From Sinomicrobium oceani (GTDB taxonomy: Bacteria > Bacteroidota > Bacteroidia > Flavobacteriales > Flavobacteriaceae): a DNA stretch of 64,000 bases. Both the position numbers and the translations under genes were made by a program. Location: positions 1 to 64,000 of the forward strand of contig NZ_FPJE01000020.1 of assembly GCF_900119185.1 (NCBI RefSeq), read 5' to 3'. Under the pieces are notes generated by a model, which saw nothing but the letters and a program-made list of their open reading frames with translations, was not told the DNA's origin and ran no database searches. Position 1 is the stretch's first letter. Each line of letters begins with the position of its first letter. Shown in pieces: positions 48,732 to 59,455 of the stretch.

Positions 48732-51700
48732 ATGAAAAGATTAAAACGTTCGCACCGGGTCATAGCACTTTTCCTGGTCTTTAGCATGTTGCCTGCTCTG
48801 GTGCCCTACAATATGTTGCAAGCTTCCGGAAACGGACCGACAGCTCCGGAAGCTACCGGATTTGAGCCCGTTGACGCTACTGATATGGTCAACCTGATGA
48901 CCGGCGATTTATCTTATGTGTTACCGCTGTTGAATGTGCCCTCTCCGGAGGGCGGATACCCCCTGGCCCTGGCGTACCACGCCGGTATCGCCATGGACCA
49001 GGAGGCCTCCTGGGTGGGATTGGGCTGGAGCCTAAACCCGGGGGCTATCAACCGATCGGTAAACGGGTATCCTGATGATTATAATGCTTCTTTGCTGACG
49101 GAATATTTTTATGATCAGGGGGGGAGAAAAGATATGTATTCCTTGTCTCTGGGGTTTACCAGTAAAGCAGGCGTATCCGTAGGACTCGGCTTATCGTGGG
49201 GAAGTAATCGCAGTCTTGGTGGCTATGTGAGTGTGGGATATGGTCTGGATATAGGACCCAACGCAAATGCTCGCATAGGAACAAACGGCATAGGAGTCGG
49301 AGGTGGTTATACCGTAAATGGAGGGTTGTCAGCAGATTTTAATGCTCATACTTCAAATGGCTTAGGAGGTTCTGTAGGGCTTAATAACGGAGAGGGTTTT
49401 GAAGTGGGACTTTCTTCTTCCGGAACACTTAGTATTTATCAAACTTCTGGTAACCAGTCCATAGGGATGAGTATGTCTTCAAAAGGTATGGGAGTTTTTA
49501 TGGGAAGTAAAAATACTCATAGTACTAATGTGATACAGGGAGTAGGTGTTGGTTTAAGAATGTCTTTCAACAATACGATGAGTATGGGAGACTATACTGT
49601 CGAAAGCAGTGGATGGGCTATCCCGGTAACAATACCCACTCCGATCGGCATTTTCAGTCTTTCATTCGGAAAACAGCGGATGAAATATTACCTCAACAAA
49701 AAGGTGTATAATTATGTAAACGGACCATTGTTTTTTAATGAAATGATTAAAAATGAAGAAATCTATAAAGTTGAAATATTAGTGGGTTCAATCGATATGG
49801 GTTTTGCAATTTATCCTGTAGGCTTTGCCTCTACTTATGAAGAGGGAGTTCAAATGGCTATTGATGCGGGAGCCTATGAGGATGCTTATCGTGTTACAAA
49901 AATAAGAACAGATGAGGCATTTATGGATATTTATGAAGTTCCTATAAAAGGTAAGGAAATTTCCAGGAAGGGAGAACTGGAATTTAATAATCCGGTATTT
50001 CCCGCTTATGATAATTATAATGTACAGGCCCAGGGAATATCGGGAAGCATGTCGTCCAGGTTATTTGAAAACGGAGTGTTGTATGGGCTTTCAAATAAAG
50101 AAAATGATCAGGGATATCAGCTAAAACATGCTTTAGACGGATTTTCATCCCGGTTTCCTGATCATGCCCGTTTTGATGGTAAGCCCTATTTCTATATCGA
50201 TAATGAGATCAGTACATATCTCGAGGTGAAAAATGCCAGTTTTAATTCCGGGACTATGCATTCCGATATATTGGACTATTATTCGACGGGAGTTAAGAAC
50301 CTTCCCGAGAACAGAAGGGTCAATAGTAATTTTATCGAGTATTTCACGAACAGGGAAATCCGGGAAAACCCTGTGGATGTATTGAAAAAAGGATTCTTAC
50401 ACCCACTGGCTTCCGGTTTTTCCAGGATGAACTATCCTTCTGATGGGATAGGAGCTTTTAAAATCACAGCTCCGGATGGAAAGACCTATCATTATTCGCT
50501 CCCGGTATACAATCACGAAATTGTAACCCGGACTTTCGGAGTGGTAAAGAACAATGCTGCCGAAGCAAAATCTTATTTTGAAAAACGTCAACTCGAACCT
50601 TATGCCACGCACTGGCTGCTAACCGCAGTGACCGGTCCTGATTTTGTGGACACCAATGGTAATGGTATGGCAGACCAGGGGGATTACGGCTATTGGGTAG
50701 CTTTTGAATACGGAAAATGGTCGGAAGCATTCGGCTGGAAAACGCCTTATGGAACAAGTTACCTGGAAGACGACAGTGACCCGGGGGTAAAGACCTATAT
50801 TCGCGGACGAAAGGAAGTATATTATCTCAACAAGGTAATAACCCGCACACATAAAGCCTTATTTATAAAGGAAGAGCGAAAAGACGCCGGGTCTTCAAGA
50901 TGGGCTTATAATTCGGTAGCTCATAAAGAAGAGCAACAGAGCCAGAGTAACTATGTGAACCGGTTTACCCTTCCGAGACAGAATTCGTTGCGGTTGAGCA
51001 AGATTATCCTGGTAAAGAATCCGCATGACGTATACACGCAGCCTGCAAACTCCAGGCCTTCCTCCTCGGTTGAAGTTTTGTATAACGATTCCTCCAAACC
51101 GGCACAGAATGCAGAATACAATTTATGGAAAAATGTCCTGGATATAGACGATGACTGGCAGGCCGTAATGGACAAAGCCGTCAAAGTAATTGATTTTGCG
51201 TATGATTACAGCCTTGCTGAAAATGCCCCGGATGCCTCACCTATTAGCGGACGATCTGCTTTGAGGGGGGTACAATTCAGGGGTAAAAAAGGAGCTTTGG
51301 TGATTCCCCCGTATCGTTTTGCGTATTACGATGGCTATGGCGATTTTAATATAGAAGATAAGGACGAATTCGGATATTATGGAGCCGATAACAAATGGTG
51401 TTCTCTAAAAACGGTAATTACGCCGCAAGGGGGACAAATGCACATAGTATATGAAGGACACAACATAAAACCGGCTTTCGTTTCTTCGGTACGTTTTACC
51501 AGGGGAGCATCCGCAAATTATAAAATATCCAAGATCAATGCTGTGACTTATCGTATAGAGTCGGGGGAAAATGTAGGGATACAACCGGGGGATCAGCTTT
51601 CTTTCAAATATAGCAAGGTATGTGAGTGGGAAGATCAGGGAAACTGTGGAGGTCCATGTGGGTATGAAACCGAACATTGTGATTTTGAGGCTATGGCAAC

Positions 51701-53924
51701 GGTTACATCACGGGATGGCAATAACAAATTTACACTATCCATACCAGCTAACGAATGTAGCTATATCGACCAGAATTTCAATTGCGACCTCACTACGGAG
51801 ACATTCTCTGCCGAATTTAAACTCACCGATGCCCTGGAAAACCTCGGTGGAATTCGTGTACGTGAAATTATTACATCAGACGGGACAGGCCGGACGTATA
51901 ATACAACATACCGGTATGGGAAAAATGAGAATGGTGTAGGGTATATCTCTTACCTGCCTTATGCTCCCGAATTACAGCAGGAGCTGCCGTACAGTGCGGA
52001 GCTGCCTGCACCCAAAGTGATGTATGACCAGGTAAGTGTGGAGTTTCCGGATGGCCGGAAAAACCGATACTATTATTCGGTAATGAAGGAGAAAGATCCC
52101 GAAGAGATTAAATACGAAGACTTTTATGAGATTTCGAAAACGGCTTCGGATATCAATAATACAGCAAAAGGAGTAGATGTCAATGTAAGTACCTTTACCA
52201 TAAAGGACAACCTTTCGGCGCTGGGCAGACTGGAAGCTGTAGAAGTATTGAACAAATACGGGCAGCAGCTGAGTAAAATAGAAAATGAGTATTACGATCC
52301 CGGAACAACACCGGGTGTAGCCGGAGTTACCCAGGAATCATATCAAAGCTATAAGATCGTAGACTACAAACAAAATACCGGCAGCCGTAAAGATAAGTGG
52401 CTGATCAATTCTTCGTCGCGTATCCGGTACCCGAATGTGCTAAAATCATCTGCAGAGTACAGGAACGGACATGTTTTCCGAACGGTATATAAAGATATGG
52501 ATCCGGTTACCGGGGTGTTCAGGGAAGCCGAAACCACTTCTGCTTCGGGTGAGCAACTCGTATCCCGTGCAGTTCCTGCATATATACGTTATCCTGAAAT
52601 GGGGAGTATGGTTCACAGCAACACGAATAAAAACATGCTTACCCAAATCGCGGAGACCTATAGTTATATCAGGGAACAAGGAGGGGCCAAAAAGTATATG
52701 GGAGCCGGAATTACCACCTGGAAACCCGAACAGTACGATTATACGATTTACACCGGGCCGCCCCACGCACCTGTATCGACGGGTGCCTCTGCCGATGTTT
52801 GGAGAAAACATAAAAGCTATACCTGGGACGGGGCCTTGGATAATGACGGTACACTTGCGACGGAGCCTGGGAATTTTATATGGTCTTCTCCTTCGGCTAC
52901 ACAGCCTGCCGGATGGAAACTGCTTTCGGAGATCACCCTGTACGACAACTTTTCGAATGTACTGGAAGTTAAAGATATCAATGGTAACAAAGCCGCAACG
53001 AAAAGGGGAGATGGGTCTTCTAAAGTTTTTGCTACCGGCAATACAGCCTTTAACACCATGTTCTATTCCGGATTGGAAGAAGGAACAGGAACTACGATTG
53101 CAGAAGGCGTGACGCGGGATGCCACAGCGGTTATTACATCGTCCAGGGCACATACCGGTAGCCGTTCTGTACAGGTAGCTTCCGGTGTTAAAGCCTTTAA
53201 GGTAAAACCTGGTCAGGGTGGTACCTACCGTGTTTCGGTCTGGGCACATACTTCCGGTTATACCGGGGCGCGTGTGGTTTCGGGAGGACAAAATTATACC
53301 TATCATCAGGACGAATTGGTCCGGGCCGGTGATTGGGTACAACTCAATTTTGACATAGCAGTGAACGCAGGTACAGAGGTGGCCCTGACTTCTGCTTCCG
53401 GGACCGTGTATTTTGATGATTTCAGGATACACCCCGTAAGTGCCGGGATGTCTTCTTATGTATATAATGAGGATGATGAACTTACATATATTCTGGGGCC
53501 AAACAATATGGGAGCCAGGTATGTGTATGATGCCGGGGGGAGGTTAAAAGAAACCTATACGGAAATTGCGGATACAGAAAACTTAACAGGAGGGTATAAA
53601 CTAACTTCAGAAGTTGCATATAATTATGCAAGAATAGAGGATAGCCCTTACGTACCTTTAAAAGTAGAATTGTGGGAAGAAGGCACCTACCCAAGCCATA
53701 AGGCAGTGATGCGTGCCTCCGGAGGAAGCGGACAATATGAATATCGCTGGTCTATGCAGTGTGGTTCTTATGCAAGTAAATATGGTAATTGGACTTCTTC
53801 ACAGTCATTAATTCTTTTAAACAACTGCTCGGATAGGGTGTACGTTAGATGTGAGGTTAGGGATCTCAGGTCGGATGAAATCAAGAATGATGCAAGAACA
53901 TATAAGGTTGAAAATCAGCTTTAA
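48732..53924 (+). CDS. giant exported RHS-system protein, first half
   Basis: A 1730-residue protein with an N-terminal signal (residues 10-35). Residues 50-115 (NLMTGDLSYVLPLLNVPSPE, then SWVGLGWSLNPGAINRSV) match the start of large flavobacterial proteins found beside RHS genes and resemble the SpvB-like start of Tc toxin B subunits. Residues 130-270 are a Gly/Ser-rich, AT-rich segment that looks variable. A Cys-rich insertion (KVCEWEDQGNCGGPCGYE) is near residue 960. YD-type repeats (SYVYNEDDELTYILG, ARYVYDAGGRLKETY) lie near residues 1575-1615, and an Ig-like end follows. It should form part of the RHS shell; the next gene carries the core and tip. Confidence 0.8.
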   Translation: MKRLKRSHRVIALFLVFSMLPALVPYNMLQASGNGPTAPEATGFEPVDATDMVNLMTGDLSYVLPLLNVPSPEGGYPLALAYHAGIAMDQEASWVGLGWSLNPGAINRSVNGYPDDYNASLLTEYFYDQGGRKDMYSLSLGFTSKAGVSVGLGLSWGSNRSLGGYVSVGYGLDIGPNANARIGTNGIGVGGGYTVNGGLSADFNAHTSNGLGGSVGLNNGEGFEVGLSSSGTLSIYQTSGNQSIGMSMSSKGMGVFMGSKNTHSTNVIQGVGVGLRMSFNNTMSMGDYTVESSGWAIPVTIPTPIGIFSLSFGKQRMKYYLNKKVYNYVNGPLFFNEMIKNEEIYKVEILVGSIDMGFAIYPVGFASTYEEGVQMAIDAGAYEDAYRVTKIRTDEAFMDIYEVPIKGKEISRKGELEFNNPVFPAYDNYNVQAQGISGSMSSRLFENGVLYGLSNKENDQGYQLKHALDGFSSRFPDHARFDGKPYFYIDNEISTYLEVKNASFNSGTMHSDILDYYSTGVKNLPENRRVNSNFIEYFTNREIRENPVDVLKKGFLHPLASGFSRMNYPSDGIGAFKITAPDGKTYHYSLPVYNHEIVTRTFGVVKNNAAEAKSYFEKRQLEPYATHWLLTAVTGPDFVDTNGNGMADQGDYGYWVAFEYGKWSEAFGWKTPYGTSYLEDDSDPGVKTYIRGRKEVYYLNKVITRTHKALFIKEERKDAGSSRWAYNSVAHKEEQQSQSNYVNRFTLPRQNSLRLSKIILVKNPHDVYTQPANSRPSSSVEVLYNDSSKPAQNAEYNLWKNVLDIDDDWQAVMDKAVKVIDFAYDYSLAENAPDASPISGRSALRGVQFRGKKGALVIPPYRFAYYDGYGDFNIEDKDEFGYYGADNKWCSLKTVITPQGGQMHIVYEGHNIKPAFVSSVRFTRGASANYKISKINAVTYRIESGENVGIQPGDQLSFKYSKVCEWEDQGNCGGPCGYETEHCDFEAMATVTSRDGNNKFTLSIPANECSYIDQNFNCDLTTETFSAEFKLTDALENLGGIRVREIITSDGTGRTYNTTYRYGKNENGVGYISYLPYAPELQQELPYSAELPAPKVMYDQVSVEFPDGRKNRYYYSVMKEKDPEEIKYEDFYEISKTASDINNTAKGVDVNVSTFTIKDNLSALGRLEAVEVLNKYGQQLSKIENEYYDPGTTPGVAGVTQESYQSYKIVDYKQNTGSRKDKWLINSSSRIRYPNVLKSSAEYRNGHVFRTVYKDMDPVTGVFREAETTSASGEQLVSRAVPAYIRYPEMGSMVHSNTNKNMLTQIAETYSYIREQGGAKKYMGAGITTWKPEQYDYTIYTGPPHAPVSTGASADVWRKHKSYTWDGALDNDGTLATEPGNFIWSSPSATQPAGWKLLSEITLYDNFSNVLEVKDINGNKAATKRGDGSSKVFATGNTAFNTMFYSGLEEGTGTTIAEGVTRDATAVITSSRAHTGSRSVQVASGVKAFKVKPGQGGTYRVSVWAHTSGYTGARVVSGGQNYTYHQDELVRAGDWVQLNFDIAVNAGTEVALTSASGTVYFDDFRIHPVSAGMSSYVYNEDDELTYILGPNNMGARYVYDAGGRLKETYTEIADTENLTGGYKLTSEVAYNYARIEDSPYVPLKVELWEEGTYPSHKAVMRASGGSGQYEYRWSMQCGSYASKYGNWTSSQSLILLNNCSDRVYVRCEVRDLRSDEIKNDARTYKVENQL

Positions 53925-53959: not shown

Positions 53960-56900
53960 ATGAAATATACAATCATTATAAAGACATTGATATTCATATT
54001 TTTCTGTTTTTCCGTTTATAGCGGAAATACCCAGTCGTATTCCATCGGAAGAATCGGAGGATCCGCAGGCACTGCGAATAATGGAGACCGCGCGAACTAC
54101 GTAGTTTACAAAAACGGTACAATTATGAGCAGCGGATATATGAATGATATAGAATGGAGAGTTTCAGGAGGACAGATTGTGGGAGGAACCAGCAGTTCAA
54201 GCCTCACTGTATTATGGAATGGAGATGTTCGTAATTGCAGAATAAATATATTATTTAAAGATGTTCAGGCGGGTGGATATTATAGTGCATCGCTAAGCGT
54301 TACTGTTGAAGGAACATCACCGGACAGACCGCCTTATCCAAAAATTCAATCCAGGGATTGTGGTGAAGTTATAATAGCTTACGAGGGAACTCCGTTAAGG
54401 GGAACTAACTGGTATTGGCAGGGAAAAAACCCCGATGGCGAGAATACTAACCTTGGGTATGGAAAGACATTCAGTGCCAGTGATGGCAATGGAAGATATT
54501 ATTTGCGAGCAAAAAATAGTTTTGGGTGGAGTAAGACTTCAAGTTACATAGATGTTGAAATAACCGATACCCCTCAAATACCGGATATGCCCGGCATTAA
54601 CATGATAAACAACGGGGAAAGTGTTGTTTTGACTAAGGGTACTCCTCCAAATGGAGTCGAATGGTATTGGCAGGAATCTGAGAATGGAGAAAGTACCGAT
54701 AGCAGTGAGTCCAGCATAACCCTTACCACCGGAACCGTATATTATATTAAAGCAAGGAGTATAAGCCTAAATTGCTGGAGTGCTGCAAGGAGAATTAACT
54801 ATACACTTAGAAATCCGGATTTAGATCCTTATGATGTTTTGGAGACGGATAGAAATTGGATGTCTTCAGTATCTTATGATATTACAGGAGTTATAAAAGA
54901 AAATTCCATAAGATATGCCAATGCTTTGGGAAACACAGAACAAATTCAGCATGTAGATATAAAAACTGCTAAACTATGGACTACTCATACATTGTATGAT
55001 AAAGAGGGAAGAGCAACCTTTCAGACTACGGGGGCTCCTTTGGATGCATTAAAATCGAGTACATTTCAATTTCGTAATGATTTCATACGAAAAAGCAACG
55101 GCAGCAATTATAGTACTGCCGATTTTGAAACCAATCCGGAAAATCCTGCCGCGGTTGGTAACCAGCCCGGGACCTTAGGCTGGTATTACAGTGAAAACAA
55201 TACTTCGGAACCCTACCAGGATATAACCGCTTATCCTTTTTCGAGGATGATATTCAGCGACCTTAATCCCGGAGCAGTGTTGAAACATGTAGGCGGAAAT
55301 AAGGTCAACGGAACATGGCCGCAGTCTTATGTATTCAGTATGCAGACCTCCGGCGAACTCGCACAAAGCGCAGCTTTCGGAGAGGGCAGGTATGCTACGG
55401 TAAAAACAATAAAAACGGTAAGCAGGGATGTACATGGTGTGGAAAATGTCATTTTTACGGATACCGATGGTAAGACCCTGGCTGCTGCAAGAAGCGGGGG
55501 AGGCAGTGCGCGGAATATGAATATAAAAATCGGGGCACAGGGCTATGTGGATATCCATGTACCTGCCGGGACAACAGGTTTTACAGTGAACAGGCCATCC
55601 GGAGTACAGACCTCGGTATATGATCTTATTACGGAGAACCAGGTAACTACAGCCACCACATCACTTCCCAACGGGTTTTATCGTGTTGCAGTCACTGATG
55701 TGGATAATTACAATCCTGCGACCCCCGTGCAGGTTACATACAAAGAAAATTATTACGATTATGCGTTAAACGAATACGATAAGGCAGGACATCTGATCGC
55801 CTCTTATCAACCCTACGGGAATACGAAATCTGTCAAACCTAAGACCACTTTCAAATATGATGCCCTGGGACAATTGATATATACGAATAGTCCGGATGAG
55901 GGAGAGGCCTGGTTTAAATATCGCAGGGATGGCCAGATACGATATTCCCAAAATAGTAAACAAAAAGCGGAAGGAGAGTTTTCCTATACCAATTATGATA
56001 ACCTGGCCAGGCCTGTAGAAAGCGGAGTACTGGTAAGCACGGCTTTTAATAATGCCGACCCGGATGCCTCCCTGCCCGCCGGAACCAAAAAAGAACAGCA
56101 GTTTACGGTTTACGATGCCGGGGAGAGCATTAGTGTGGGCAGTGGTGCCAGGAAACAGGCTTTTGCAGCCGGTAATGTGGCCAGAACCTATAACGACCAT
56201 ACGACCACCTGGTACAGTTACGATATCTACGGCCGTGTAAACTGGATCGTACAGGATATCCCCGGAATAGGTAAAAAGACCATAGATTACGAATATCACC
56301 CGGTAAGCGGACTGGTAAGCCAGGTGGTTTACCAGAAGGATGTAGGTGCCGAACGCTTTATACACCGGTACACATACGACAAGACCGACCGGCTGATCAA
56401 GGTGGAAACCTCTGTTAACGGCAGTACGTATACTACCCGTGCTACCTATAGTTATTATGAGAACGGGGCCCTGAAACGGACAGAACTGGGCAACAAACTG
56501 CAGGGCTTGGACTATGTTTACAATATTTCCGGGCAGTTAAAGAGTATCAATCACCCTGCCTTGAGTGCTGCCAAAGATCCCGGGGCGGACGGTAATGATA
56601 TTTTCGGTATGACGCTGGACTATCACCGCAATGATTATATGCGTAATATCGACGGCTTAAGTCCGGCTACCTATGGGAACGATCGCCTGGACGGGAATAT
56701 CAAGGGGGTCCGTTGGAACAATAAATACCAACCGCTTACCGGTGCGGAAAATGCCTATAATTATACCTATGACCGGAATAACTGGTTGGCAGCAGCTACC
56801 TATGGACAATATGCCGAATCTTTCGGCTCGGATATAGAGGCAGATATTACTTCTGCGGCAGTGACCGGGAGTGGAGAGACCCTTCCCCTGGAAGCTACCG

Positions 56901-58468
56901 GCAGTATTACTTTAAAGCCCGGTTTTCATGCCAAAGCGGGGAGCACTTTTACAGCCAGGATCGTCAAGGTAGATGGTTTTGCAGAAAATGCCAAAGGCGA
57001 TTATAAGGTCACATTAACCTACGATGCCAACGGTAATATACAAACCCTGGAGCGGAACCAAAATACTGTAGGCAGCAGTAATGCGATGGACAAGCTGACG
57101 TATAATTACAGCAATAGCAAACCCAACCGTCTGGACCATGTAAAAGACGCCGTAACTGCAGGCACCGGGGCCGATGATATCAAAGGGCAGGCCAGCGGGA
57201 ATTATGTATATAATACGATCGGGCAGTTGACAGAAAATAAGGAGGAAAATGTTAAGTACCGGTACACTGCTTCCGGCCTCGTAAGTGAGGTATTGAAAAA
57301 TAATGTACCTTTGGTTAAGTTCTTTTACAACGACCGCGGTCACCGGGTAAAAAAGGAAAGCTATACCAGCGGTAGCCTTGCTAAAACCGAATATTACGTC
57401 AGGGATGCTTCCGGGAGTGTTATGGCCATTTACCAGGGGACTTCGGCAAAGGAATATCCCATTTACGGAGCAAGTCGTCTTGGTGTGTATTTTAAAACCG
57501 GTAATACAGCTGTCTACCAGTTAACGGACCATTTGGGGAATGTAAGGGCATTGGTACAGGAAAGTGGGACACTGGCGGGGGCTACGGATTATTACCCCGG
57601 CGGGATGGCAATGCCTGCAAGAAAATTATCGGATGCCGAAGGTTACCGATATGGTTATCAGGGAGATTTTGCTGAAACCGATGAGGAAACCGGGAAACCT
57701 GCTTTTGAGTTAAGATTATATGATCCAAGAATTAATAGGTGGTTGACAACAGATCCTGCTCAACAGTATGATAGTCCCTATCTTTCTATGGGGAATAATT
57801 GGGTGAACAGGAGGGATATTGATGGAGGGGAAGATAGTCCTATTTTTGATCAGGATGGTAATTTTTTAGGTGTAGATGATCAGGGATATCAAGGACAAAT
57901 TATTATAATGGATAGGGATAGATATGGGAAACTTGTAGCTAATTGTGGCCCGGGCGAAATAATGAGCCATGAAACTGCGATGAAAAATAATTTAGGCCTT
58001 TCCTCTTTAGGAGAAAATTTTGAAGCTATGTCTAAAATTCAAACACATGTAATGAATGAAAAAGGATTTGATATTAATAAATTCCATAATGGAATGACTT
58101 CTATCACTAGTGGTTTTAGAAGGAATGGTGTTTTAGAAGGATTTAATGATCCTGCGTCAGCTCAAAGATATAAAGGAACTCCTTTGGAAAATGGATATGT
58201 AAAGGTTACTACCAAAGCCTCTTACTTTTCAGAATTAAGCACAGTTGAACTAATAGTCAATTACCTCGGTGTTCATGAATTTACTGGGCATGGATTAAAT
58301 AAATGGATTAATGGAACGGATCATTATAAAGCTTATGAACTCCAAAAAAAGCATGAATCTTTTCATAACCTTCCTGATTGGGCTAAAGAAGAAATCAACA
58401 ATAGGATTTATGATCCTAGGAATAGACCGGACGGTTACATCCCTCCAAGGGGTTGGAAACGAATGTAA
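53960..58468 (+). CDS. RHS-repeat protein with C-terminal HEFTGH tip (candidate polymorphic toxin)
   Basis: A 1502-residue exported protein (signal peptide residues 1-24). Two Ig-like units near residues 110-290 share a GTP-x(2)-G-x(2)-WYWQ motif. YD repeats run from about 590 to 1250; ITLKPGFHAKAGSTFTA near residue 980 is a known adhesin-like insertion. The RHS core (YRYGYQGDFAE to NRRDIDGG) is at 1228-1291. After it the DNA becomes AT-rich and encodes a 210-residue tip with GVHEFTGHGLNKW (HEFTGH at 1439-1444) and DHYKAYELQKKH (His1455), suggestive of a metal-dependent enzyme, though not a standard HEXXH. RHS tips are toxic effectors held in the shell; toxicity here is inferred. It follows the 1730-residue gene after 35 bases. 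Confidence 0.82.
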   Translation: MKYTIIIKTLIFIFFCFSVYSGNTQSYSIGRIGGSAGTANNGDRANYVVYKNGTIMSSGYMNDIEWRVSGGQIVGGTSSSSLTVLWNGDVRNCRINILFKDVQAGGYYSASLSVTVEGTSPDRPPYPKIQSRDCGEVIIAYEGTPLRGTNWYWQGKNPDGENTNLGYGKTFSASDGNGRYYLRAKNSFGWSKTSSYIDVEITDTPQIPDMPGINMINNGESVVLTKGTPPNGVEWYWQESENGESTDSSESSITLTTGTVYYIKARSISLNCWSAARRINYTLRNPDLDPYDVLETDRNWMSSVSYDITGVIKENSIRYANALGNTEQIQHVDIKTAKLWTTHTLYDKEGRATFQTTGAPLDALKSSTFQFRNDFIRKSNGSNYSTADFETNPENPAAVGNQPGTLGWYYSENNTSEPYQDITAYPFSRMIFSDLNPGAVLKHVGGNKVNGTWPQSYVFSMQTSGELAQSAAFGEGRYATVKTIKTVSRDVHGVENVIFTDTDGKTLAAARSGGGSARNMNIKIGAQGYVDIHVPAGTTGFTVNRPSGVQTSVYDLITENQVTTATTSLPNGFYRVAVTDVDNYNPATPVQVTYKENYYDYALNEYDKAGHLIASYQPYGNTKSVKPKTTFKYDALGQLIYTNSPDEGEAWFKYRRDGQIRYSQNSKQKAEGEFSYTNYDNLARPVESGVLVSTAFNNADPDASLPAGTKKEQQFTVYDAGESISVGSGARKQAFAAGNVARTYNDHTTTWYSYDIYGRVNWIVQDIPGIGKKTIDYEYHPVSGLVSQVVYQKDVGAERFIHRYTYDKTDRLIKVETSVNGSTYTTRATYSYYENGALKRTELGNKLQGLDYVYNISGQLKSINHPALSAAKDPGADGNDIFGMTLDYHRNDYMRNIDGLSPATYGNDRLDGNIKGVRWNNKYQPLTGAENAYNYTYDRNNWLAAATYGQYAESFGSDIEADITSAAVTGSGETLPLEATGSITLKPGFHAKAGSTFTARIVKVDGFAENAKGDYKVTLTYDANGNIQTLERNQNTVGSSNAMDKLTYNYSNSKPNRLDHVKDAVTAGTGADDIKGQASGNYVYNTIGQLTENKEENVKYRYTASGLVSEVLKNNVPLVKFFYNDRGHRVKKESYTSGSLAKTEYYVRDASGSVMAIYQGTSAKEYPIYGASRLGVYFKTGNTAVYQLTDHLGNVRALVQESGTLAGATDYYPGGMAMPARKLSDAEGYRYGYQGDFAETDEETGKPAFELRLYDPRINRWLTTDPAQQYDSPYLSMGNNWVNRRDIDGGEDSPIFDQDGNFLGVDDQGYQGQIIIMDRDRYGKLVANCGPGEIMSHETAMKNNLGLSSLGENFEAMSKIQTHVMNEKGFDINKFHNGMTSITSGFRRNGVLEGFNDPASAQRYKGTPLENGYVKVTTKASYFSELSTVELIVNYLGVHEFTGHGLNKWINGTDHYKAYELQKKHESFHNLPDWAKEEINNRIYDPRNRPDGYIPPRGWKRM

Positions 58469-58480
58469 TATGTGAGTACT

Positions 58481-59011
58481 ATGAAATATTTATTTACAAT
58501 TGTCATTGTTTTTTTATATGGGTGTAATAATAGTAAAAAAATTAGTGTCAATTCAATCACTTTTGAGTCCCATATTTGTTTTAATAAAGATTCGGATATT
58601 TTGCGATTTGATGATGTTCATATCATAGTCAATAAAGTAGATACAACTATAGCAAAAAGAGACTTTTTTATTGTTTATGATAAAGATACTATTTCTCTGA
58701 TTCCACCTTTTTCAGATGAAAATATAATAAATGAAGATAATTTATCTTTTAGGTTTTCCAAAAATAAAAATTTGCAAGAAAACTTGGTGTCTAATCAATT
58801 TGAAATTATTGATAAAATTAAAAAAAGTTCTTTATTTTATATGAAAGGTGGTAATGAAAGAATATTAGGTAAGACGAGAATGAGTGATTTAATAGAAAAG
58901 GATTCTATTATTGTGAACTTTTCCTATTTAGATCAAGATTTTATTTATATGTTGAAAGGGAATAATATTAGGAGAGAAAATCATATTTCAAAAGAAGTTG
59001 ATTGTAACTAG
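58481..59011 (+). CDS. small lipoprotein, candidate immunity protein
   Basis: A 176-residue protein starting MKYLFTIVIVFLYGCNNS, a lipoprotein signal with the lipid-bearing Cys at residue 15. The rest is a predicted beta-rich domain (ISVNSITFESHICFN, RFDDVHIIVNKVDTT) and a C-terminal IIVNFSYLDQDFIYMLKG. The DNA is the most AT-rich of the window. It begins 12 bases after the RHS stop, the usual place of an immunity gene; a periplasmic lipid anchor would suit a tip that acts on the envelope. No family recognised. A GTG at 58472 adds three residues and is less likely. Confidence 0.6.
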   Translation: MKYLFTIVIVFLYGCNNSKKISVNSITFESHICFNKDSDILRFDDVHIIVNKVDTTIAKRDFFIVYDKDTISLIPPFSDENIINEDNLSFRFSKNKNLQENLVSNQFEIIDKIKKSSLFYMKGGNERILGKTRMSDLIEKDSIIVNFSYLDQDFIYMLKGNNIRRENHISKEVDCN

Positions 59012-59027
59012 GGCCTGTTAACATAAG

Positions 59028-59271
59028 CCCGCTCAACGAAGTATAGCATGCTTCTGCATATGTCTCCGACTTCGTAGTTCCTTGCATGTGAATGATATAC
59101 AAATACGTTAAACCCCTCTCAGAGGGGCTTCAGGATTATATTTTATGCTTCCGACTTGGTTAGTGCCGTACCCGCTCCACGAAGTGTTTTATGCTCTGCG
59201 AACGTCTCCGACTTCGCAGCCTACTGCACACTAGGGGACAGACCAATATGTTATGCACCTCTCTGAGGGGT
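59028..59271. repeat. degenerate direct repeats downstream of the RHS tip
   Basis: Two copies of a roughly 50-base unit, CCCGCTCAACGAAG to CTCCGACTTCGTAG (59028-59077) and CCCGCTCCACGAAG to CTCCGACTTCGCAG (59171-59219), each with CGAAG/CTTCG inverted ends. Each is followed by a palindrome: CCCCTCTCAGAGGGG (59113-59127) and a weaker ACCTCTCTGAGGGGT (59257-59271). A further partial unit (CTTCCGACTTGGTTAGT) is at 59148. They look like remains of an array that once flanked tips. Confidence 0.6.
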
Positions 59272-59317
59272 ATCCGAAACGAATGCAGTATTGAAAAATA
59301 ATCTATTTTTGGTTACA

Positions 59318-59455
59318 ATGTTTTATAGGGCCGGCTGGGGAGGTCACCGGGTAAAAAAGGAAAGCTATACCAGCAGCAGCCTTGCTAAAACCGAATATTA
59401 CTTCAGGGATACTTCCGGTAGTGTCATGGCCATATACTATGGAACAGTGGTGTAG
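59318..59455 (+). pseudogene. orphan fragment of the RHS core
   Basis: A 45-codon frame (ATG 59318 to TAG 59453-59455) reads GGHRVKKESYTSSSLAKTEY and SGSVMAIYYGT. It is nearly identical to residues of the intact RHS protein encoded at 57333-57440 (GHRVKKESYTSGSLAKTEYY, SGSVMAIYQGT), including at DNA level. The rest of the core and any tip are missing; about 35 bases after the stop there may be a further short similarity (GCTACAGATAATGATTA). It is the kind of displaced remnant left when an RHS tip is replaced. Confidence 0.8.

Follow-up and report, generated by a model that had tools for sequence, protein, structure and literature searches.

The window, that is, the whole stretch of 64,000 nucleotides analyzed here, comprises positions 1–64,000 on the forward strand of contig NZ_FPJE01000020.1 of Sinomicrobium oceani (GCF_900119185.1). 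Its RHS locus consists of two genes, encoding a companion protein of 1,730 aa (48732–53924) and then an RHS protein (53960–58468). The following features are considered below:

53960–58468, + strand: RHS protein of 1,502 aa with a swappable C-terminal tip (ORF and profile matches)
57830–58465, + strand: the tip, 212 residues at the end of the RHS protein (ORF and family alignment)
58274–58291, + strand: HEFTGH, predicted metal-binding and catalytic HExxxH motif (H, E and H invariant in 7/7 members of the tip family)
58319–58333, + strand: DHYKA, start of the predicted third-ligand stretch, with the His codon at 58322–58324 (His165; His in 6/7 members, Glu in 1/7)
58481–59011, + strand: lipoprotein, predicted envelope-anchored immunity protein (ORF, lipobox by eye)
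59288–59445, + strand: displaced RHS-core remnant downstream of the lipoprotein gene (82% identical over 158 bases to 57290–57441, E 2.6e-41)

A profile search identified the YD_repeat_2x, RHS_repeat and GCX_COOH domains in the RHS protein above their curated cut-offs, and the Rhs_assc_core model with 32.2 bits, slightly below its cut-off of 32.5. RHS/YD repeats and an RHS-associated core that precede a variable C-terminal tip give the protein the layout of an RHS polymorphic toxin. Its N-terminus is signal-peptide-like (by eye), and the T6SS sheath family PF05943 has no match in the genome of S. oceani itself (0/1). Another RHS gene is located near 70471–74001 on the same contig, ~11 kb downstream and beyond the window (G000:C27, in L040).

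The tip comprises a linker common to other tips (approximately residues 1–60) and the HExxxH domain (approximately residues 65–212), with limits that we infer; HEFTGH is followed by DHYKAYELQKKH, encoded at 58319–58354. An earlier note on this DNA had described the tip as carrying HEFTGH instead of a standard HExxH motif and had not recognized the domain, and both observations hold. The motif at 58274–58291 is of the HExxxH type, and searches of Pfam, NCBIfam and PDB sequences with the tip and with six members of the family described below returned nothing usable (chance matches, E 0.098 or worse). The M49 profile is absent among the Pfam/NCBIfam matches of six members with E up to 10 (the seventh has no Pfam match), the Pfam models of the Tox-MPTase families match no member, and a profile-based comparison against 26 further RHS tips, including four with HExxH, indicated no relation (probability 0.8% or less). 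Since HExxxH arises in 346 of 20,000 shuffled versions of the tip, the case for a functional site rests on its conservation and not on the presence of the motif.

Six distant relatives, 18–38% identical to the window tip, were found: four in Flavobacteriales/Bacteroidales, one in Persicobacter and one in another Bacteroidota genome. The seven members of the family are thus the window, L055, L046, L042, L043, L048 and L050, where L046 (from a Flavobacteriales MAG) forms a single locus with L005 and L041 and was counted once, L048 is from a Bacteroidales MAG, and L050 is partial, with masked bases ahead of the domain. The whole tip, compared with 397 family-level genomes, retrieved besides the window two relatives sharing only the linker, and its last 132 residues retrieved one real relative (L005, E 0.0018) from overlapping sets of 395 order-level and 395 phylum-level genomes. 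A two-row profile matched 3 of the 88 genomes of L005's family, including L005's own, and the same alignment, used to scan a contig collection, yielded five loci, two of them with the domain (L046, the L005 locus, and L048). A search of 395 genomes with a five-row profile recovered the window along with G867 (E 2.4e-15); a third match was left uncounted. The plasmid collection contributed a member from Persicobacter sp. JZB09 (aligned over 92% of the tip with 33.8% identity, E 2e-13); the L048 tip found only the same Persicobacter place among the plasmids (E 0.2) and the L046 tip found nothing there. Searches of viral contigs and phages returned nothing, and a search with the DNA of the cassette gave short matches only (E 0.3). 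The HExxxH tip family is rare in these samples, a part of whose genomes was searched with the more sensitive profiles.

Several candidate members were rejected. Weak single-sequence matches fell at 34 loci besides the window's own (five further listed matches without a locus are not included), and HExxxH was present in the matched frame only in L005. Reading of the frames at 8 of the 34 loci likewise left L005 as the only real relative, the other seven being seemingly unrelated (we take some of them to be glycosidase-like or TonB-receptor-like). L002, L003, L044, L045 (from the same contig region as L002) and L047 were dropped because their likeness is confined to the linker, and L051 (E 0.009) because of stops in frame.

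All seven members keep TVE...HExxxH, followed 10–19 residues later by [HE]xx[AVSC][YF]. Over the 272 columns of the alignment the invariant positions are G79, G100, D107, T138, V139, E140, H149, E150 and H154 (window-tip numbering), while the motif itself reads HEFTGH, HEWQYH, HEYLSH, HEYYGH, HEYLSH, HEWYGH and HEWYSH. The third-ligand position is occupied by His in six members and by Glu in L043; the His of the Persicobacter tip is aligned in the multiple alignment and unaligned in the pairwise one. Judging from this alignment, the HExxxH site is conserved in a real, if small, family of RHS tips.

The pattern around the putative third ligand resembles the [NG]ExxA helix of gluzincins, for which His as third ligand is not the norm. 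In dipeptidyl peptidase III (M49), HELLGH and a Glu 52 residues further on coordinate zinc, and the helix turn comprises five residues (PMC3268031); the tubulin carboxypeptidases TMCP (PMC10499314) and TldD, whose third ligand is Cys (PMC5810440), are active HExxxH metallopeptidases, and peptidases with HEXXXH were reported in phage polyvalent proteins (PMC5512222). Given these enzymes and the gluzincin-like third-ligand pattern, we read the tip as gluzincin-like, with one extra residue in the active-site helix, as in dipeptidyl peptidase III. It would accordingly be a small zinc-dependent peptidase, in which the two His of HExxxH would bind the metal and its Glu would act as general base, and the following helix, [HE]xx[AVSC][YF], would contribute the third ligand (His165 in the window tip). 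The residues of a gluzincin site (HExxxH and the later [HE]) are kept in 7/7 members, and the structure models are too poor to assess its geometry: AlphaFold2, run with three alignment rows, gave unusable mean pLDDT values of 34.9 for the window tip and 40.9 for the L046 domain. The L046 model places HExxxH inside one long helix (residues 61–85) and the window model places HEFTGH at the start of a short helix (150–160), both with confidence too low to count.

The likeness to M49 is limited to the motif and to a later ligand, predicted in the present case, on a second helix (PMC3268031); however, the animal forms have 723–738 aa and a Glu ligand at a distance of 52 residues (PMC3268031), whereas the present domain has ~150 aa, a spacing of 10–19 residues and mostly His, and matches no M49 profile. 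The phage polyvalent peptidases are zincin-like, have a potential helix bend and occur in conflict-related proteins, but these are proteins of phages and conjugative elements and not RHS tips (PMC5512222); this comparison is by description. TldD (PMC5810440) and TMCP (PMC10499314) show that the motif can work in active enzymes, although their contexts differ. A literature search combining HEXXXH with toxin and immunity found, in the portions of text available, no RHS toxin tip of this type described.

The site could instead hold iron or another metal, making the tip a different metalloenzyme toxin such as an oxygenase or a hydrolase. The lack of any match to a peptidase profile would agree with this, as would a His third ligand, which departs from the gluzincin norm. 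A small domain in which TVEN...HE[FYW]xxH is closely followed by [HE]xx[AVSC][YF] nevertheless seems better explained as a minimal zincin, and the Glu of L043 suits the third ligand of a gluzincin. Hence, despite the precedent of the aromatic amino acid hydroxylases, in which HELLGH is an iron site (PMC3268031), we consider a non-peptidase enzyme unlikely. An HNH or other metal-binding nuclease was dropped from consideration, as the context of HExxxH and the exported partner do not seem to fit it.

The neighbor of the tip was described in the earlier note as an AT-rich lipoprotein gene 12 bases downstream, and this was confirmed: the stop codon of the RHS gene ends at 58468, the ATG of the lipoprotein gene (GC 23%) is at 58481, and an alternative in-frame GTG is located at 58472. 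The N-terminus, MKYLFTIVIVFLYGC, is lipobox-like (by eye), with the Cys encoded at 58523–58525. The predicted pI values are 9.1 (last 133 residues of the tip) and 5.4 (lipoprotein without its first 20 residues). Six of the seven family members have a next gene that starts between -13 and +17 bases from the end of the tip gene and encodes a protein of 160–177 aa with an export signal, recognized by eye as a lipobox in the window and L050 and as a signal peptide I in L046, L043, L042 and L048. The remaining member, an orphan core fragment from Persicobacter, has no partner next to it, with a lipoprotein-like frame more than 1 kb further on. The partners are divergent: in a multiple alignment from which that of L050 was left out, identity to the L046 partner is 27% for L043, 27% for L042, 15% for L048 and 15% for the window, and BLASTP of the window lipoprotein against the L046 partner found nothing. 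Comparison of the partners with Pfam gave only matches below the cut-offs, including DUF6705 (E 0.011, L050) and the immunity family Imm71 (E 0.03, L042), which were not used as evidence. No convincing relative of the window lipoprotein was found in 109 genomes or in the plasmid collection; its single weak match besides itself, L101 (E 3.1e-4), was rejected, as it is located among seeming cofactor-biosynthesis genes. Linkage of lipoprotein and tip in other strains, the check named in the earlier note, could be followed at the level of the family, where 6/7 members have an export-signal neighbor; the same pair was found in no other strain. The partners of the family share a position and an export signal and not a conserved sequence.

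As a control we analyzed partners of other RHS tips. The RHS core matched in 81 of 198 genomes, and 30 loci were taken, one from each of the best-scoring genomes; for three of them the tip extended beyond the locus, and 5 of the other 27 lacked a partner frame within range. The 22 partners comprise 10 exported, 5 membrane and 7 signal-less proteins, as classified by eye and not blind. All four HExxH tips among the 27 (L074, L076, L081 and L097) have partners with export signals (4/4, versus 6/18 for the other tips; one-sided Fisher p 0.029), and the HExxxH family exceeds the control both for tips with partners (6/6 versus 10/22, p 0.021) and with partnerless tips included (6/7 versus 10/27, p 0.029). 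This trend, from a small sample and our own classification, fits envelope-acting metallopeptidase tips. Since exported partners are common also for other Bacteroidota tips (10/22, and likewise L002, L003, L044 and L047), such a signal has only mild specificity.

The base composition shifts along the locus: GC is 45% for the RHS body, 34–35% for the tip, 23% for the lipoprotein gene and 44% again beyond it. The segment 59288–59445 is the trace of a past tip exchange that displaced the core. Two copies of an intergenic repeat of ~100 bases (59028–59127 and 59171–59270, 72% identical) lie between the lipoprotein gene and this remnant. A related core is present in 3/6 genomes of the same genus (S. 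oceani's own included), and the orthologous RHS genes in G297 (75%) and G1112 (72% over a 200-aa core stretch, as for G297) carry other tips and other partners; the tip is thus exchanged between orthologues along with its small downstream gene, a trait of RHS polymorphic toxins. Taken together, the base composition, the core remnant and the differing tips within the genus indicate that tip and lipoprotein came as one cassette. The G1112 locus (L058/L059) has two successive tip-partner cassettes on the orthologous RHS gene: the partner in the first has a membrane-helix-like start (by eye), and the second combines a tip that is HNH-like by eye with a partner lacking a signal peptide.

These observations bear on the possibility that the tip is not toxic at all, but serves in processing, adhesion or structure, with the lipoprotein in an accessory role (anchor, chaperone or export factor). 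The signal-peptide-like start of the RHS protein, the lack of a PF05943 match in the genome (0/1) and the exported neighbors of many tips (10/22 partners) would be compatible with such a role. However, replacement of the tip in same-genus orthologues, an AT-rich cassette and a displaced core remnant typically mark polymorphic toxins. Where the tip differs in the two orthologues, so does the partner, and a general accessory would not behave in this way; we therefore hold a non-toxic function to be improbable.

We propose that the tip is probably a metallopeptidase toxin that acts in the periplasm, and that the lipoprotein is its envelope-anchored immunity protein. The earlier note had read the pair as an envelope-acting toxin with a periplasmic immunity protein, a reading supported in part by the motif, the lack of a domain match and the export-signal neighbor in 6/7 members. 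According to this model, the tip would serve as the exchangeable toxin domain in an RHS polymorphic toxin of Bacteroidota and would act outside the cytoplasm by cleaving a protein or peptide of the competitor's envelope, while the lipoprotein, anchored in the producer's envelope and facing the periplasm, would bind and block it. A metalloenzyme ancestry could also be combined with loss of activity, the window copy being inactive or capable of binding only: it has diverged at the GGKI-type segment present in most relatives, and in the alignment its C-terminus is shorter than those of several of them. We find this distinctly improbable, as the window copy keeps all putative catalytic and ligand residues. 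Finally, a eukaryote or predator as the target, for which the eukaryote-directed effectors HopH1/NleD among RHS-type and HExxH toxins offer a parallel (PMC3482391), is very improbable in view of the adjacent export-signal partner in 6/7 members, which points to self-protection and hence to a bacterial envelope target.

Periplasm-acting metallopeptidase toxins have a described precedent. VgrG2b of P. aeruginosa is toxic in the periplasm of E. coli and harmless in the cytoplasm, requires the Glu of its HExxH motif, and is neutralized by an adjacent exported protein (PA0261); immunity proteins of this family reach their place by a signal peptide, lipidation or a membrane helix (PMC6899460). The Tpe-Tpi pairs resemble the present one, as proposed here, in combining a metallopeptidase-type C-terminal toxin domain with an adjacent small gene, the bulk of Tpi being periplasmic (PMC6899460). 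They differ in the motif (HExxH) and in the carrier, a T6SS VgrG spike, whereas here HExxxH occurs on an RHS protein whose N-terminus is signal-peptide-like, and PF05943 has no match in the genome. The comparison is by description, and no relation to VgrG2b is claimed. The Tox-MPTase1-5 families are small zincin-like tips of RHS proteins, several of them from Bacteroidetes, but all five are listed with HExxH or HEELH (PMC3482391), in contrast to HExxxH in 7/7 members here.

It is possible, and we suggest it tentatively, that the seven tips represent a new HExxxH zincin family, used as an RHS tip, with a mostly-His third ligand, directed to the periplasm, and countered by unlike exported partners recruited in different lineages. 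If the proposed function is right, the Bacteroidota arsenal gains a family of metallopeptidase toxins with an unusual metal motif, for which seven tips and six partners provide a concrete starting set. It would also offer a defined toxin-immunity pair for studying how an RHS protein whose start resembles a signal peptide delivers a periplasm-acting domain when its genome lacks any match to PF05943, the T6SS sheath family.

A minor observation concerns the linker at the start of the tip. The pattern I[FY]D..G.FLG.D..G.QG and its variants (57830–58010 in the window) are common to otherwise unlike tips from several Bacteroidota (L002, L003, L044 and L047), and in each of these, as in the window, the next gene encodes a small lipoprotein. 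The linker may be a common adapter of envelope-acting tips.
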